Source of the DNA: an uncultured Actinomycetes bacterium
GTDB taxonomy: Bacteria > Actinomycetota > Acidimicrobiia > Acidimicrobiales > RAAP-2
DNA length: 46,601 nucleotides
Direction: 5' to 3'
Assembly: GCA_903832015.1 (NCBI GenBank)
Contig: CAIKZX010000096.1
Span: 1-46,601 of the forward strand
Shown: piece after piece, positions 26,890-43,032 of the stretch
Layout of the letters: each line of letters opens with the position of its first letter
Numbering within the stretch: the first letter of the stretch is position 1
Position numbers and translations under genes: made by a program
The notes under the pieces: model-generated
The model's input: only the letters and a program-made list of their open reading frames with translations
Told to the model about the DNA's origin: nothing
Database searches by the model: none

Positions 26890-28125
26890 TTACCCAAAGA
26901 ATGTTATTGCTCGTTGGAGGCCTTCGAGCAGCGCGTCGGTATCAGAGGGTAATGAGTAGGGGCCGTAAGAGGCTCGGGCTGTTGCGGCCAGATTGAATTT
27001 CTTCATCAGGGGCTTGGCGCAGTGGTGGCCCGGTCGAACGCAGACACCAATTTCGTCCAGCACTTGAGCGATATCGTGCGGGTGAACACCCTCAACATCA
27101 AGACTCAAGACGCCACCACGCTCGGCGTGGGCGGCTGGGCCAATAATCCGCACTCGTCCATCGAACTGGTCATTCAATCGGGAAATGGCGTCAACGGTGA
27201 GCTCTCGGTCGTGAGCTTCGATATTTGCCATCCCGAGACCCTCGAGATACCGCACGGCCGCGTGTAGGCCAACCGCTTCGGCAATCATGGGGGTTCCCGC
27301 CTCGAAACGAGTAAAGCCTGTAGCGGGGGTGTACCCATCGAGGCGCACATCGGCAATCATGCCCCCGCCGCCAAGAAAGGGTGGCATGGCATTGAGGATC
27401 TCCGGGCGGGTCCAGAAGACCCCAATGCCCGTGGGTCCGAGCATCTTGTGACCGGAGAACATCATGAAGTCCACATCTAAGTCCACGAGGTCAATGGGGA
27501 GGTGACCGACACTCTGCGAGGCGTCGATGGCTACGAGAGCGCCGTGTTCGTGAGCCAGTCGAGCGAGCGACTTCACGGGGTTGATCGTGCCCAGCACGTT
27601 ACTCATTGCGGTGAGTGAAAGGAGTTTGACGCCCCTAAGGAGTTCGTCGATGTTTGTAAGGTCAAGTTCAAAGTTGTCGTCCACTGGGATGAAGCGGACC
27701 TCAAGATCGACCGACTCACGAAGTTGGAACCACGGAACAATATTTGCGTGGTGCTCCATCTCCGAAATCAACACCACGTCACCATCGCGTAGATTCGCAA
27801 CTCCCCACGATTTGGCCAACAGGTTAAAGGATTCGGTGCAGTTCTTGGTGAAAACCACACCCTCTGCGCCACCCGGAGCATTCAAAAACTGCGCCACCGC
27901 CTCGCGAGCGCCTTCGTAGGCGTCGGTGGCTTCGTTGGCTGTTTGGTACACGCCACGGTGGACATTGGCGTGGCGAAGTCGGTAGTACGTATCCATGGCC
28001 TCGATGACGGACCTCGGGGGCAAAGTTGAAGCGCCGGAGTCCAAGTACGTAATTGGCCGGCCATTAATGATGCGAGTGAGTGCGGGAATATCCTCTCGGA
28101 CCCTCACCGCATTGAAATAGCTCAC
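26890..28125 (-). CDS. sufS: Cysteine desulfurase SufS
   Basis: This 411-residue PLP enzyme removes sulfur from cysteine as an enzyme-bound persulfide for Fe-S assembly. The cofactor lysine is Lys227 in FSGHKMLGPTG. The catalytic cysteine is Cys369 in RPGHHCAKPLM. SEMEHHANIVPW and DASQSVGH are usual SufS segments. The substrate loop reads YLDSGASTLPP instead of the common YLDNAATSQKP, a modest variation. Its start overlaps the upstream sufC stop by four bases and its stop abuts sufU. The pairing with SufU, rather than SufE, fits Gram-positive and actinobacterial systems. Confidence 0.95.
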   Translation of the reverse strand: MSYFNAVRVREDIPALTRIINGRPITYLDSGASTLPPRSVIEAMDTYYRLRHANVHRGVYQTANEATDAYEGAREAVAQFLNAPGGAEGVVFTKNCTESFNLLAKSWGVANLRDGDVVLISEMEHHANIVPWFQLRESVDLEVRFIPVDDNFELDLTNIDELLRGVKLLSLTAMSNVLGTINPVKSLARLAHEHGALVAIDASQSVGHLPIDLVDLDVDFMMFSGHKMLGPTGIGVFWTRPEILNAMPPFLGGGGMIADVRLDGYTPATGFTRFEAGTPMIAEAVGLHAAVRYLEGLGMANIEAHDRELTVDAISRLNDQFDGRVRIIGPAAHAERGGVLSLDVEGVHPHDIAQVLDEIGVCVRPGHHCAKPLMKKFNLAATARASYGPYSLPSDTDALLEGLQRAITFFG

Positions 28126-28880
28126 GCGTCGACGGCCTTCCAGGCGTCGTAGCCCTTAGCTTCGATCTCTCGTGCGAGTTCGGCGCCACCAGATTGCACA
28201 ATGCGACCATCAACCAAAATGTGAACCTGGTCGGGCTTAATTTCATCCAGCAACTTGACGTAGTGGGTGACTACGAGTGCGGCCATGTCGGGGTGCTCGT
28301 CGCGAACGGTGCGCACGCCTCGGGCGACAACGCGTAGAGCGTCGATGTCGAGTCCAGAGTCAGTTTCGTCCAGCAGAGCCACGATTGGTTCCAGCAGGGC
28401 CATTTGGAGCACTTCATTGCGCTTGCGTTCACCACCGGAAAACCCGTCATTGAGGTGACGCTCGGCGAATGCGGGGTCCATGCCCAAGCGATCCATCCAC
28501 TCGGCTAAGTCCAGGCGGACTTCGAGGATGCTCAATTCTTCGAGCCCCTTGCGAGCGGCGATGGCCTGGCGAAGAAATTGCACGACGGAGACTCCGCTGA
28601 TTGCCTCGGGGTACTGGAAGGCGAGAAATATTCCCGCCCGCGCCCGCTCGTCGGGGGTCCAGCTGGCAATATTTTCACCCTGCAGAAAGATCTCTCCCTC
28701 GGTGATGAGATAACCCGGGTGGCCCATAATGACACTGGCCAGAGTTGACTTTCCCGCACCGTTGGGGCCCATGAGGGCGTGTACCTCACCCACGTTGAGG
28801 GTTAAGTTAACCCCTCGCAGAATCGGCGCACCGTCAGCGCTCGCGTGGAGATTTCGGAGTTCTAAGAGGGGGTGAGTCAC
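28122..28880 (-). CDS. sufC: Fe-S assembly ATPase SufC, copy 2
   Basis: This is a second complete SufC (252 residues), with Walker A GPNGAGKS (38-45), Q-loop LAFQYPEAISGV, signature FSGGERKR (147-154), Walker B ALLDETDSGLD and H-loop His206 (VVTHYVKLLDEI). Its wording is close to canonical SufC. It leads the sufC-sufS-sufU operon with a four-base overlap into sufS. The start is GTG, placed 6 bases after a TAGGCT box, which argues for a leaderless transcript. Because SufB and SufD each bind one SufC subunit, two different SufC proteins could form a mixed complex; this is inference. Confidence 0.93.
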   Translation of the reverse strand: MTHPLLELRNLHASADGAPILRGVNLTLNVGEVHALMGPNGAGKSTLASVIMGHPGYLITEGEIFLQGENIASWTPDERARAGIFLAFQYPEAISGVSVVQFLRQAIAARKGLEELSILEVRLDLAEWMDRLGMDPAFAERHLNDGFSGGERKRNEVLQMALLEPIVALLDETDSGLDIDALRVVARGVRTVRDEHPDMAALVVTHYVKLLDEIKPDQVHILVDGRIVQSGGAELAREIEAKGYDAWKAVDA

Positions 28881-31978: not shown

Positions 31979-33394
31979 ATGGCTAACCAAGTCCAGCAGT
32001 TCGATGTTGTCATTATTGGTGGAGGTCCAGCGGGATACGGAGCCGCCCTCTACGGAGCGAGCGCGGGGCTGAGTATCGCCCTCGTCGAGCGTGACAAGGT
32101 CGGGGGCACCTGCTTGCACCGAGGCTGCATCCCCGCCAAAGAGTTCTTAGAAACCGCCCACGTGCGTCGCACTCTGGAGCACTCGGCCAGTTTTGGTATT
32201 ACCGCCAAGGGCGTCGAGGTCGACTTTTCCGTTTCACAAAAGCGCAAACAAGATGTCGTGGACCTCATGTTCAAGGGCCTCTCGGGCCTCTTGAAGGGTC
32301 GTAAGGTCACGACCTTTGACGGTACCGCTCGTCTCGACGCTGGTTTAACGGTCAGCGTGCTGGATGGGGCAGACGCCGGAGTCACGATTCAAGCGAAGAA
32401 TGTCATTCTCGCTCCCGGATCAGTGCCACGTACTTTGGACAACGTGCCCGTTGACGGTAAGACCGTCGTGACCAGTGATGAATTCCTGAGCTTGAACTCT
32501 CTACCAAAGTCCGCCGCCGTAATTGGTGGTGGCGCCATTGGTTGTGAATTCGCCTCGATGCTCTCGGACATGGGTAGTTCGGTGACCATTCTCGAGGGCC
32601 TGCCTTCGATTCTCGCCGGATGCGACATAGAGGTGGCCAATGTGGTTTCGCGCTCATTTAAAAAGCGCGGAATCGAGATGATTGTGGACGCCAAGATTAA
32701 GGGATCAGCTCTCACCAAGAAGGGCGCCACTCTTTCACTCGAGGGCGCTGAAGACCTCACTGTCGAAATGGTGGTGGTCTCGGTCGGGCGTCGCGCCAGG
32801 ACTGAAGGGTTGTTGGGTGAAGGTACTGGTGTCGAGATTAACGACCGTGGCTTCATTGTGGCCGACGGACTCATGAAGACCAAGGCGCCCAACGTCTACG
32901 CCATTGGTGACGTGGTGGCTGGTACGCCACAACTCGCGCACGTTGGTTTCGCCGAAGCGATTGTGGCCATTAAGTCCATCCTGGGCGAGGCGGTCACGCC
33001 CGTGGATTACGAACGAGTGCCGTGGGCGATCTACACCAACCCCGAGGTGGCTTTCGTGGGCCTCACTGAAGCTGCGGCCAAGGAAAAGGGGTACGAGGTC
33101 ATCGTAAAGAAGGACCCCTTCGCCGGTAACGGTCGCGCCCAGATCATTGGCGAATCCGAAGGGGTCGTAAAAATCATCGCGGAAAAGCGCGCTGATGGTA
33201 CCGCCGGACAGATTTTGGGCGTGCACATGGCTGGTCCATGGGTGACCGAACAATTGGGGGCCGGTTACTACGCCGTGAACTGGGAGGCCACCGCAGAAGA
33301 GGCGGCCGCTTTGATTCAACCCCACCCGAGCTTGAGCGAAACCTTCGGTGAGACTCTGCTTGCTTTGGCCGGTCGAGGTTTGCACGTTGGCTGA
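31979..33394 (+). CDS. lpdA: Dihydrolipoamide dehydrogenase (E3)
   Basis: This 471-residue flavoprotein reoxidises dihydrolipoyl groups of 2-oxoacid dehydrogenase and glycine cleavage complexes with NAD+. It has the FAD motif VVIIGGGPAGYGAA, the redox disulfide GGTCLHRGCIPAK (CxxxxC), the NAD motif AVIGGGAIGCEFAS, YAIGDVV and the C-terminal catalytic HPSLSE. All catalytic parts are normal. The TTG start of the E2 gene lies inside its last codons (8-base overlap), so E3 and E2 are made together. Mycothione or mercuric reductases share the fold, but the E2 and lipoate genes downstream favour Lpd. Confidence 0.95.
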   Translation: MANQVQQFDVVIIGGGPAGYGAALYGASAGLSIALVERDKVGGTCLHRGCIPAKEFLETAHVRRTLEHSASFGITAKGVEVDFSVSQKRKQDVVDLMFKGLSGLLKGRKVTTFDGTARLDAGLTVSVLDGADAGVTIQAKNVILAPGSVPRTLDNVPVDGKTVVTSDEFLSLNSLPKSAAVIGGGAIGCEFASMLSDMGSSVTILEGLPSILAGCDIEVANVVSRSFKKRGIEMIVDAKIKGSALTKKGATLSLEGAEDLTVEMVVVSVGRRARTEGLLGEGTGVEINDRGFIVADGLMKTKAPNVYAIGDVVAGTPQLAHVGFAEAIVAIKSILGEAVTPVDYERVPWAIYTNPEVAFVGLTEAAAKEKGYEVIVKKDPFAGNGRAQIIGESEGVVKIIAEKRADGTAGQILGVHMAGPWVTEQLGAGYYAVNWEATAEEAAALIQPHPSLSETFGETLLALAGRGLHVG

Positions 33395-34556
33395 CGTTAC
33401 CCTCCCGTCTCTGGGTGAATCGGTCACCGAAGGCATCATCACCCAGTGGTTTAAAAAAGTGGGTGACCTGGTGGCTCGGGATGAACCACTCTTCGAAGTC
33501 TCCACCGACAAGGTGGACTCGGAGATGCCTTCACCGGCGGCTGGTGTGCTCGTTCAAATTCTCGCTGAAGAGGGAGACACGATTGAGACGGGTGCCCGCG
33601 TTGCGGTGATTGACGAGAGCCAAACGGTGGCCGCGAGCGGTACCGAGCCCATCGCACCCAGCCCCGCGCCCGCGACGCCTACGCCACCCCCTCCCACGAC
33701 TGCCCCGGCAACCGGCAAGAGCGGAGTAGTGCTGTCACCAGTAGTTCGTCGGATCTTGCGAGACGCGGGTATCTTGCCCCAGCAGGTTCGCGGCACGGGC
33801 ACTGGCGGAGCCATCACGCGGCAAGACGCTGAGCTGGCGGTAGCGGGCGGGCCCAGTGAGCCCTACGCCCTATCACTCTCCACTGGACGCCGTCGCATGG
33901 GTCAACACATGGCGCTGTCCTCTCAGGACACCCCCCACGGCTTTGTCGCCATCAGTGTCGACGGCTCAGTCTTTGACGTGCTCGACCTCCTCGGCCGCAG
34001 CACCGATGATGGCTCGGTCATTACCGATGAGGTGCTGGTGGCTTTCGCCGCAGTGCGGGCGTTGAAAGAATTTCCAATTCTGAACGCGACCTGTGACGGT
34101 GACCAAATCGTCTTTCAACACGGCGTCAACTTGGGCTTTACCCGAGCGATTGATGAAGATGGCATGTTGGTGCCAGTGGTGCACGCCGCGGCGGGATTGA
34201 CGCTGCCACTTATGGCTCGTCGGGTTATGGAAATTGACGAACACGTCTCCTCGCGTCAGCTCACCACCGATGACCTCATGGGTGGCACCTTTACCGTCCA
34301 GAGTTCGCCGAGTGAGCACACCTTGTTCACCCAACCCATCATCATCCAACCTCAAGTAGCAGTGATGAGCGTCGGATCACGTCGGTACGTCCCAGTGGTC
34401 GTCACCAGTAAGGGCAAGCCCACTATTGAAGTTGGCTCAGAACTGGTTTTGGGCCTGTCCTTTGACCACCGGGTCTGTGAGCCCCAGACCGCAGCGAAAT
34501 TCTTGGAGCGAGTCGCCGAAATTCTGTCGAGCCTGGACCTCGCGGCGGAGCGCTAA
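33387..34556 (+). CDS. 2-oxoacid dehydrogenase E2 acyltransferase with altered active-site motif
   Basis: This 389-residue protein has the E2 layout: one lipoyl domain (1-80; Lys42 in STDKVDSEMPSP is the lipoylated residue), a Pro/Ala/Thr linker (85-112), a peripheral-subunit-binding domain (about 115-150; VVRRILRDAGI) and an acyltransferase domain (about 165-389). The expected catalytic DHRxxDG reads DHRVCEPQ: His361 is kept, but the Asp is Glu365 and the Gly is Pro366. The usual TFTITNxG segment is TFTVQSSP. It may work with Glu, or be impaired. TTG at 33387 gives the family start MADVTLPSLGESVTEG and overlaps lpdA; the longer frame from 33348 is not supported. No E1 gene is in the window, so pyruvate, 2-oxoglutarate or branched-chain specificity is open. 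Confidence 0.88.
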   Translation: MADVTLPSLGESVTEGIITQWFKKVGDLVARDEPLFEVSTDKVDSEMPSPAAGVLVQILAEEGDTIETGARVAVIDESQTVAASGTEPIAPSPAPATPTPPPPTTAPATGKSGVVLSPVVRRILRDAGILPQQVRGTGTGGAITRQDAELAVAGGPSEPYALSLSTGRRRMGQHMALSSQDTPHGFVAISVDGSVFDVLDLLGRSTDDGSVITDEVLVAFAAVRALKEFPILNATCDGDQIVFQHGVNLGFTRAIDEDGMLVPVVHAAAGLTLPLMARRVMEIDEHVSSRQLTTDDLMGGTFTVQSSPSEHTLFTQPIIIQPQVAVMSVGSRRYVPVVVTSKGKPTIEVGSELVLGLSFDHRVCEPQTAAKFLERVAEILSSLDLAAER

Positions 34557-36182
34557 ATGTTGCGTCGACGTCACCTGGGCCGCGTTACCTTTCTCGAGGC
34601 CAACGACTTTCAACGCGCGCTAGCGGAAAGTGTCGACGACTATCTCTTGTTCTTTGAGCATCCGCCGACCTACACCCGAGGGGTCCGAACGGATCCCAGC
34701 AACTTTCTCGTTCCGGTCGAATCTCTCCAGGCCACCGTCGTTGATGCGGACCGTGGCGGAGACGTGACCTACCACGCCCCCGGTCAGGTCGTGGGCTGGG
34801 CGGTGGTGACCGTGCCTGATCAACCCAACGCTGGACCGACTCACGTGCGCAAGTTGGAAGACGCGGTGATTGACGCTGTGACCTCGCTTGATGTCGACGG
34901 CCGCCTTGGAGTCGTGGGGCGATTGCCGGAGTATCCCGGCGTGTGGGCCCACGTGGATTCCAATCCCCACAAAATTGCGGCGGTGGGGGTTCGAACCTTC
35001 CGTAATAAGGCCGGGGTGCGTCGAACCCTGCACGGTGTGGCCCTCAACGTCGAGATCGACCTCGAAGGATTTTCGAAAATAATTCCCTGCGGAATTCCCG
35101 ATAAGCCCGTGGGTTCCCTTCACTCGTTGGGACTAACGACGGCTTACGTCGATGTGGAGGAACGACTCGGGGAGGCTATGGAGGCTCAGTTCGGTGGGAA
35201 CGCTGACGTGGCGCGGGTTGATAGCTCCGAGGCCAGCCTCAGTGATGAGCGCCCCTTGATTCGCCGCCTACGCAAAGCGGGGGTCAACCCCGACGAGGCG
35301 CTCTCCATCAATACCCGCAAGCCCGAGTGGTTGCGCATTGAAGCCCACATGGGCCAGGAGTACCAGTCGCTGCGAACCCTAACCGAGGATCTTCGACTGG
35401 TGACGGTGTGCGAAGAGGCGGGCTGTCCAAATATCTTCGAGTGCTGGAGTGATGGCACGGCAACCTTCATGGTGAATGGAGAGCGCTGTACGCGAGCCTG
35501 CGGTTTCTGCCTGATCGACACTCGTAAGCCCATGGCCCTCGATCCCACCGAGCCCGCTCGAGTCGCCGAAGCGGTAGTTCGACTGAATCTCAAGCACACC
35601 GTTATTACTTGTGTGGCTCGTGATGACTTAGCCGACGGTGGAGCGGGGGCCATTGCCGAAACTATTTACGCCGTGCGCGAGCGCGCCCCCGAAACCCAGA
35701 TTGAAGTCCTGATTAGTGACGTGAAGGGTGACCGGTTCTCACTCGACCTGATCTTGAATGCGCGGCCCGATGTCCTGAACCACAACGTGGAAACAGTTGC
35801 CCGACTGCAACGAGCCGTACGACCCTCGGCGGGATACCTACGCTCGCTCACCACCCTGGCCCGAAGTGCCCAGGCCGGACTTACGACCAAGTCGGGGCTC
35901 ATGGTGGGACTTGGTGAAACGGCCGACGAAATCGAGCAAGCGCTAGCGGACATGTACGCCGTCGGCGTGCAAATCGCCACTATTGGTCAGTACCTGCGCC
36001 CCACCGCGCGCCATCTGCCCGTTGCGCGCTACTGGACTCCTGAAGAGTTCGTCGACCTAGAACGCCGAGGCCTGGCTTTGGGACTTAAGCATGTGCAGTC
36101 TTCGCCACTCACTCGCTCGAGCTACCACGCTCGTGAGGCGCACGCCGCCGCAACGCCAGTAGGCATACCGGTCGTTCGCTAA
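34557..36182 (+). CDS. lipB-lipA: LipB-LipA fusion: octanoyltransferase and lipoyl synthase in one protein
   Basis: One uninterrupted 541-residue frame joins both enzymes of lipoate synthesis. Residues 1-210 are LipB, which moves octanoate from acyl carrier protein to the target lysine: RGGDVTYHAPGQVVGW, Lys139 in PHKIAAVGV and the catalytic Cys178 in IIPCGIPDK. After a short linker (about 212-245), residues 250-541 are LipA, which inserts two sulfurs: auxiliary cluster cysteines 285, 290 and 296 (VCEEAGCPNIFEC), radical-SAM cysteines 311, 315 and 318 (CTRACGFC), and the C-terminal SSPLTRSSYHA whose Ser ligates the auxiliary cluster. All catalytic residues appear intact. The ATG abuts the E2 stop codon, so the product is made next to its likely substrate, the E2 lipoyl domain. 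It converges on metH. Confidence 0.93.
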   Translation: MLRRRHLGRVTFLEANDFQRALAESVDDYLLFFEHPPTYTRGVRTDPSNFLVPVESLQATVVDADRGGDVTYHAPGQVVGWAVVTVPDQPNAGPTHVRKLEDAVIDAVTSLDVDGRLGVVGRLPEYPGVWAHVDSNPHKIAAVGVRTFRNKAGVRRTLHGVALNVEIDLEGFSKIIPCGIPDKPVGSLHSLGLTTAYVDVEERLGEAMEAQFGGNADVARVDSSEASLSDERPLIRRLRKAGVNPDEALSINTRKPEWLRIEAHMGQEYQSLRTLTEDLRLVTVCEEAGCPNIFECWSDGTATFMVNGERCTRACGFCLIDTRKPMALDPTEPARVAEAVVRLNLKHTVITCVARDDLADGGAGAIAETIYAVRERAPETQIEVLISDVKGDRFSLDLILNARPDVLNHNVETVARLQRAVRPSAGYLRSLTTLARSAQAGLTTKSGLMVGLGETADEIEQALADMYAVGVQIATIGQYLRPTARHLPVARYWTPEEFVDLERRGLALGLKHVQSSPLTRSSYHAREAHAAATPVGIPVVR

Positions 36183-41868: not shown

Positions 41869-43032
41869 GTGTCCTCACCCCGTGAATTACTAAACGCCGC
41901 CAAGTCTGAGATCCGTGAGATTGAAGCGCAGGAGGTTGCGGCAAACATTGCGAGTTACACGATTCTTGACGTCCGTGAACCCGACGAGTACGAGCAGGGT
42001 GCGGTACCTGGAGCAGTACACGTTCCGCGCGGACAGCTTGAATTCAATGTTGAGGGACGCATTCCGGACAAAAACGCGCATCTCGCGGTCTACTGCGCCG
42101 GTGGAGTGCGAAGTGCATTCGCCGCCAAGACCTTGCAGGACCTCGGCTACACCGACGTCGTATCGGTCATTGGGGGATTTAATAAGTGGAAGGACGACGG
42201 CCTGACGTGGTCGACACCCCAAACGCTCAGTACCGATCAACGAATTCGTTATCACCGTCACCTGCTGTTACCTGAGGTTGGCGAAAAAGGGCAAATGAAA
42301 TTGCTCGCCTCTAAGGTGCTGATGCTTGGTGCCGGTGGACTTGGCTCACCCGCGGCGCTCTACCTCGCCGCTGCGGGAGTGGGGACCATTGGCATCATCG
42401 ACATGGACGTGGTCGACTCGTCCAATATTCAGCGTCAAGTCCTACACAATATGGACCGCGTTGGCATGCGCAAGGTGGACTCCGCCAAGATGACCCTAAG
42501 TGCGATGAACCCCGACTTGAAGGTCATCACCTACGACACTCGCCTGAACGCTGACAACATCTTGGAAATCTTCGATGGCTACGACATAATCGTTGACGGC
42601 ACCGACAACTTTCCTACTCGCTACTTGGTGAATGACGCGGCCTTGTTGAAGAAAATTCCCGTGGTCCACGGGTCGATCTTTCGTTTCGAGGGACAAGCCA
42701 CTGTCTTCGAACCTTACGTGGGCCCCTGCTATCGCTGCATGATCCCTGAGCCACCGCCCGCCGAATTGGCCCCGAGCTGCGCCGAAGCGGGCGTGTTGGG
42801 TGTACTGCCGGGCATCATTGGCTCCATTCAAGCGGTGGAGACCATCAAGATGTTGTTACAACTCGGCGAGCCGTTAGTTGGTCGTCTGTTGACCTACGAC
42901 GCTCTCGAACAGAGTTTTCGCAACTTTAAGGTTCGACGCGACCCCGCCTGCCCCGCCTGCGGCGAGAACGCCGGTCCCATCCAGATCATCGAATACGACG
43001 AGCTCTGCATGCCTCACGCTGTCCTGAAGTAA
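41869..43032 (+). CDS. Rhodanese domain fused N-terminally to a MoeB/ThiF-type E1 adenylyltransferase
   Basis: This 387-residue protein probably adenylates the C-terminal glycine of a ubiquitin-like sulfur carrier (MoaD, ThiS or CysO type) and supplies sulfur to it. Residues 15-115 are a rhodanese domain with active Cys76 in VYCAGGVRSA. Residues 120-387 are the E1 domain: STDQRIRYHRHLLLPEVGE, ATP-binding GAGGLGS (154-160), NIQRQVLH, VDGTDNFPTRYL, zinc cysteines 287/290 (CYRC) and 361/364 (CPAC), and Cys304. In the well-known actinobacterial MoeZ the rhodanese domain is C-terminal; here the order is reversed. Which pathway it serves is unclear because no carrier protein gene is nearby. The GTG start follows AAAGGAA. 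Confidence 0.9.
   Translation: MSSPRELLNAAKSEIREIEAQEVAANIASYTILDVREPDEYEQGAVPGAVHVPRGQLEFNVEGRIPDKNAHLAVYCAGGVRSAFAAKTLQDLGYTDVVSVIGGFNKWKDDGLTWSTPQTLSTDQRIRYHRHLLLPEVGEKGQMKLLASKVLMLGAGGLGSPAALYLAAAGVGTIGIIDMDVVDSSNIQRQVLHNMDRVGMRKVDSAKMTLSAMNPDLKVITYDTRLNADNILEIFDGYDIIVDGTDNFPTRYLVNDAALLKKIPVVHGSIFRFEGQATVFEPYVGPCYRCMIPEPPPAELAPSCAEAGVLGVLPGIIGSIQAVETIKMLLQLGEPLVGRLLTYDALEQSFRNFKVRRDPACPACGENAGPIQIIEYDELCMPHAVLK

Follow-up and report, generated by a model that had tools for sequence, protein, structure and literature searches.

A predicted bifunctional octanoyltransferase/lipoyl synthase encoded by a single reading frame in Acidimicrobiia

In a window of 46,601 nucleotides (the whole stretch of DNA that was analysed) from an uncultured actinobacterium, one long open reading frame at positions 34557–36182 appears to carry both lipB and lipA. 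Does such a gene specify one protein for both steps of de novo lipoylation, and is it a peculiarity of one draft genome or a character of its lineage? The answer favoured by the sequences, to which we give a probability of about 0.87, is that a single bifunctional protein would serve both steps and that the fusion arose once, in an ancestor of the Acidimicrobiia.

Two complete enzymes in one frame

The frame (forward strand, ATG start) runs through 541 codons with no internal stop on translation, and its product is a predicted bifunctional octanoyltransferase/lipoyl synthase. Pfam places PF21948 (LplA-B_cat) at residues 18–205 (E = 2.8e-25), followed by Radical_SAM and LIAS_N, and the curated NCBIfam equivalog models for both enzymes score above their cut-offs (TIGR00214, lipB, 110.2 bits against 83.55; TIGR00510, lipA, 337 bits against 310.25). 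Taken together, the two libraries locate a complete LipB within residues 1–205 and a complete LipA within residues 250–531. The first-pass annotation of this DNA had proposed just such an intact frame of 541 codons, and both this reading and the residue numbers that it gave, for the LipB lysine and cysteine, proved correct. On the forward strand, the LipB (octanoyltransferase) domain occupies residues 1–190 (34557–35126) and the LipA (lipoyl synthase) domain residues 255–541 (35319–36179). The linker between them (residues 191–254; 35127–35318) comprises the end of LipB, then a variable stretch and then a short helix, RPLIRRLRKAGVNPD, which matches the arm at the N-terminus of LipA proteins that are encoded separately.

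Among solved structures, those closest to the two halves in both sequence and fold are the separate enzymes of Mycobacterium tuberculosis, LipB (1w66, 36% identical to the LipB half) and LipA (5exi; the 5exk entry is 48% identical to the LipA half). For LipB, a Foldseek search with a predicted model matched 1w66 (E = 5.7e-18) and also 2qhs.

Conservation was counted over 156 complete fusions. His73, Lys139 (34971–34973) and Cys178 (in a PCG motif; 35088–35090) of the LipB half are invariant in all 156. The LipA half of the window protein has the radical-SAM motif CxxxCxxC (C311, C315 and C318; 35487–35510), the auxiliary-cluster motif CxxxxCxxxxxC (C285, C290 and C296; 35409–35444) and, near the C-terminus, the RSSY motif (residues 520–523; 36114–36125) that includes the serine ligand of the auxiliary cluster; the six cysteines and both serines are likewise invariant (156/156). 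These residues are the established catalytic set, which in LipB is the Cys/Lys dyad and in LipA serves the radical-SAM cluster and the auxiliary cluster with its serine ligand. Such conservation indicates that both halves of the fusion have been kept working; we infer both activities and translation as one polypeptide.

How might the protein act? The LipB half would load Cys178 with the octanoyl group of octanoyl-ACP and pass this group on to a lysine of a lipoyl domain, that of the neighbouring E2 and probably that of the H protein. By radical-SAM chemistry the LipA half would then insert sulfurs at both C6 and C8, and its auxiliary [4Fe-4S] cluster would be consumed. The window genome encodes a glycine-cleavage H protein besides an E2 with one lipoyl domain, and the H protein is expected to be a further substrate of the fusion, beyond the E2 lipoyl domain on which, in the first-pass annotation, the two steps would be tethered.

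Some other genes may be mentioned here. LipA depends on a supply of Fe–S clusters, and the minus strand carries, at a distance of about 6 kb (window positions 26890–28880), genes for a class-V aminotransferase (a SufS-like cysteine desulfurase) and a SufC-like ABC ATPase. Positions 41869–43032 encode another fusion, in which an N-terminal rhodanese domain precedes a ThiF/MoeB-type adenylyltransferase. Elsewhere in the window genome (G000, contig C116, 2981–3514; L245, 1414–2241, minus strand) is a second LplA/LipB-type protein, of 275 amino acids (PF21948, E = 2.2e-9), which had no NCBIfam match; it may be a divergent ligase or an octanoyltransferase-like protein.

Distribution, neighbourhood and origin of the fusion

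The fusion was surveyed in genomes of the window's phylum. Within the window's family, 162 of 172 genomes gave a match, mostly full length and stop-free, and separately assembled relatives, at 93, 90, 77% and lower identities, have the same unbroken fused frame. In the order sample, LipA scored above the cut-off in 136 of 148 genomes, with frames of at least 490 codons in all except G310 and G272; in the class sample the corresponding figure was 135 of 148, the long frame being missing only in G398, where a contig start truncates it. The fusion is thus present in about 134/136 (order) and 134/135 (class) of the genomes with a full LipA. According to the family, order and class searches, a genome with the fused frame nearly always has no other LipB or LipA. 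An independent search with LipB gave matches in frames of the same lengths as those found with LipA, and five genomes without LipA (G168, G363, G366, G405 and G408) were also without LipB. Altogether, LipB and LipA were found in one open frame at 165 fetched loci. The apparent exceptions within the class are explained by frame breaks in draft assemblies (G272, L185), by contig ends (G398, G310) or, for G296, by a break inside LipA.

Outside this group, the fusion was found neither at the 45 loci sampled in the phylum's other classes nor at 25 loci of Actinomycetes (Mycobacterium, Nocardia, Streptomyces, Cellulomonas and others); in these samples lipB and lipA are separate, and often adjoining. 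Annotated matches among plasmid records were to separate lipB or lipA genes only. Long LipA frames in G442, G455, G504, G519, G532 and other genomes outside the class were considered as further fusions and rejected, since these genomes either lack LipB there or have it in a different frame. We infer that the class of the fused genomes is Acidimicrobiia from those fused relatives that bear names (Acidimicrobiaceae, Ilumatobacteraceae, Candidatus Microthrix, Acidimicrobiia). In essentially all sampled Acidimicrobiia, then, the LipB–LipA fusion is the normal state. It had been supposed in the first-pass annotation that such fusions are rare; instead, this one is the standard form throughout a class and absent from the other sampled classes of the phylum, a distribution which bears out the accompanying suggestion that it might be a lineage marker.

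Two further records call for comment. G358 has a normal fusion (L141) and also, on contig C83, a second, separate lipB–lipA pair (L064/L140), overlapping by 4 bases and located behind an E2; the trees place this pair outside the class, on a long branch, and it is either contamination or an acquired copy. A fusion with 70% identity to that of the window occurs in a metagenome-assembled genome deposited as 'Acidobacteria bacterium' (L173; JAGXAY010000003.1), probably a mislabelled member of the Acidimicrobiia.

The fusion gene lies directly downstream of genes for E3 and E2, next to which the first-pass annotation had already placed it, and on the same strand. E3, dihydrolipoyl dehydrogenase (Lpd), is encoded at 31979–33394 (TIGR01350, 465 bits) and E2, a dihydrolipoyl acyltransferase whose one lipoyl domain is the likely substrate, at 33348–34556 (PF00364, PF02817 and PF00198), both on the forward strand; the TAA of the E2 gene ends at 34556, with zero bases between it and the ATG of the fusion. 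This arrangement is widespread, an E2 gene being directly upstream at 144 of the 155 fused loci with enough flanking sequence. The loci in which it is not are L032, L033, L034, L036, L039, L069, L201, L203, L204, L206 and L210; a few lineages have had the fusion gene relocated away from E2. Frames of 830–1116 codons (in G132, G222, G242, G261 and others) raised the possibility of a triple E2–LipB–LipA fusion, which was rejected: in no case is E2 in frame with the other two, and these frames owe their length to stop-free, GC-rich reading in another frame.

When and how did the two genes become joined? Trees of LipA (85 rows), of LipB (71 rows) and of the two joined each require just one change between fused and separate states, with branch support for this split of 85, 90/92 and 97, respectively, and in both half-trees every fusion lies on one side of a single branch, so the fusion appears to have arisen once. 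These trees leave the root unfixed, and it is parsimony, together with the presence of separate genes in all the other groups, that points to a gain in Acidimicrobiia rather than to losses elsewhere. A plausible picture of the state before fusion is provided by family f96, of another class, in which separate lipB and lipA genes follow an E2 gene (L146, L147, L149 and L152), with a 4-base overlap of the two in L146, L147 and L152. It seems likely that in an acidimicrobial ancestor adjoining lipB and lipA genes behind an E2 gene became one fused gene in which both active sites were kept.

Coupling, dosage and translation

What might be gained by joining the two enzymes? Equal dosage alone could explain the retention of the fusion, which would then merely match the amounts of the two enzymes, their active sites having no direct handover; we put the chances of this only a little below even. 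As a mobile carrier on E2, the lipoyl domain could reach separate enzymes, and sister lineages already have co-expressed neighbouring genes. The linker, moreover, varies in sequence and length: between the VGSLH and PEW anchors there are 57–127 residues in the 156 fusions (74 in the window), and so wide a spread argues against a finely tuned linker. Most of the fusions have a short RRLxxAGV-like stretch in the otherwise variable linker, which was considered as a fusion-specific motif; since a similar QRAGVV is found at the N-terminus of the separate LipA of f96, it was inherited, and is not new.

Against dosage as the whole explanation stands a confident predicted placement of the domains in two distant members, one of them with a disordered linker. 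AlphaFold2 on 49 fusions gave for the window protein a mean pLDDT of 91 and a pTM of 0.90. A second member, L212 (48% identical to the window protein, with its linker predicted to be disordered at about residues 215–247), gave a pLDDT of 87 and a pTM of 0.89. By a simple estimate, the inter-domain error must be about 3 Å for pTM to come near 0.9, whereas independently placed domains would give about 0.55; AlphaFold2 thus predicts that LipB and LipA have a definite position relative to each other, as read from pTM rather than from coordinates and from a program that may falsely pack joined domains. These models suggest a fixed arrangement of the two domains, in which the octanoylated lipoyl domain might be handed straight on from the LipB to the LipA active site. 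A bolder and rather doubtful extension of this would be that the fusion fixes an ancient direct contact between LipB and LipA, with defined docking and with the octanoylated lipoyl domain passed across a short gap, the same contact being transient in the separate enzymes of other bacteria. If this were so, the fusion would offer a first way into a complex for lipoate synthesis.

The argument for a bifunctional protein would have to be recast if the continuous frame gave rise to two proteins: LipB, when translation stopped early or the product was cleaved, and LipA, translated from a start codon within the linker. There is an in-frame ATG or GTG in 141 of the 156 linkers and a Shine–Dalgarno-like stretch in 48, and in the window itself an ATG at codon 208 stands just behind GGGGAGG. 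The spacing between these two is, however, just 2 bases, Met208 is shared by only 2 of the 156 fusions, and no conserved internal start was found among them. Such a mode of expression would also leave unexplained why the frame is open through the linker in all 156 genomes, when any one shuffled linker would have a chance of only about 10% of being open and stops interrupt the other two frames in 105 and 98 of the 156. (Synonymous sites of the linker proved to be saturated in a dN/dS analysis.) We therefore regard two separate products as very improbable. The same evidence bears on a frame break near codons 210–250 and on separate starts for the two halves, either of which, it had been noted at the outset, would undermine the fusion: the relatives' frames have no such break, and the start at codon 208 is not a conserved one. 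As for an artefact of sequencing or assembly that joined two genes, the window genome is indeed a draft (1.03 Mb in 134 contigs, 79% complete), but chance and assembly error are excluded for practical purposes by the openness of the linkers compared with shuffled ones and by the occurrence of the same frame in hundreds of independently assembled genomes, including the single-contig G177, G202, G302 and G316.

Relation to known systems and significance

In M. tuberculosis (1w66; 5exi/5exj/5exk) and other Actinomycetes the LipB and LipA activities come from two genes and two proteins, in contrast to the one polypeptide of the fusion, although the genes often adjoin in the order lipB, lipA that is seen in the fusion. 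Escherichia coli follows the same two-step pathway with separate lipB and lipA genes, between which ybeF is located in strain K-12. A formal parallel is the bifunctional lipoate–protein ligase/lipoyl synthase modelled by NF053790, in which a protein of the LplA/LipB superfamily is likewise N-terminal to LipA; there, however, the N-terminal half is an ATP-dependent ligase, whereas here it is LipB. Against this model the window protein scored 353.3 bits, where 800 are required, and aligned only with its LipA part (model positions 330–605); none of 11 genomes of the window's family passed the cut-off. No model for a LipB–LipA fusion was among the matches returned from the curated libraries searched, and no description of one was found in open-access papers, 'lipBA' in those papers referring to Shewanella operons or to lipases. 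In protein databases such entries may already carry automatic labels, and automatic pipelines may name the fusion by one half only.

These are known enzymes, then, in an arrangement that defines a lineage. Two consecutive enzymes for an essential cofactor, permanently joined throughout a class, constitute a clean shared derived character, and as a marker the fusion can help to place incomplete or mislabelled genomes such as that of L173. It also offers a natural covalent LipB–LipA pair, both for structural work and for asking whether the octanoyl transfer to a given lipoyl domain is coupled to the insertion of sulfur there, a question that is hard to approach with separate enzymes; and the predicted fixed arrangement of the domains makes substrate channelling in this pathway a testable proposition.
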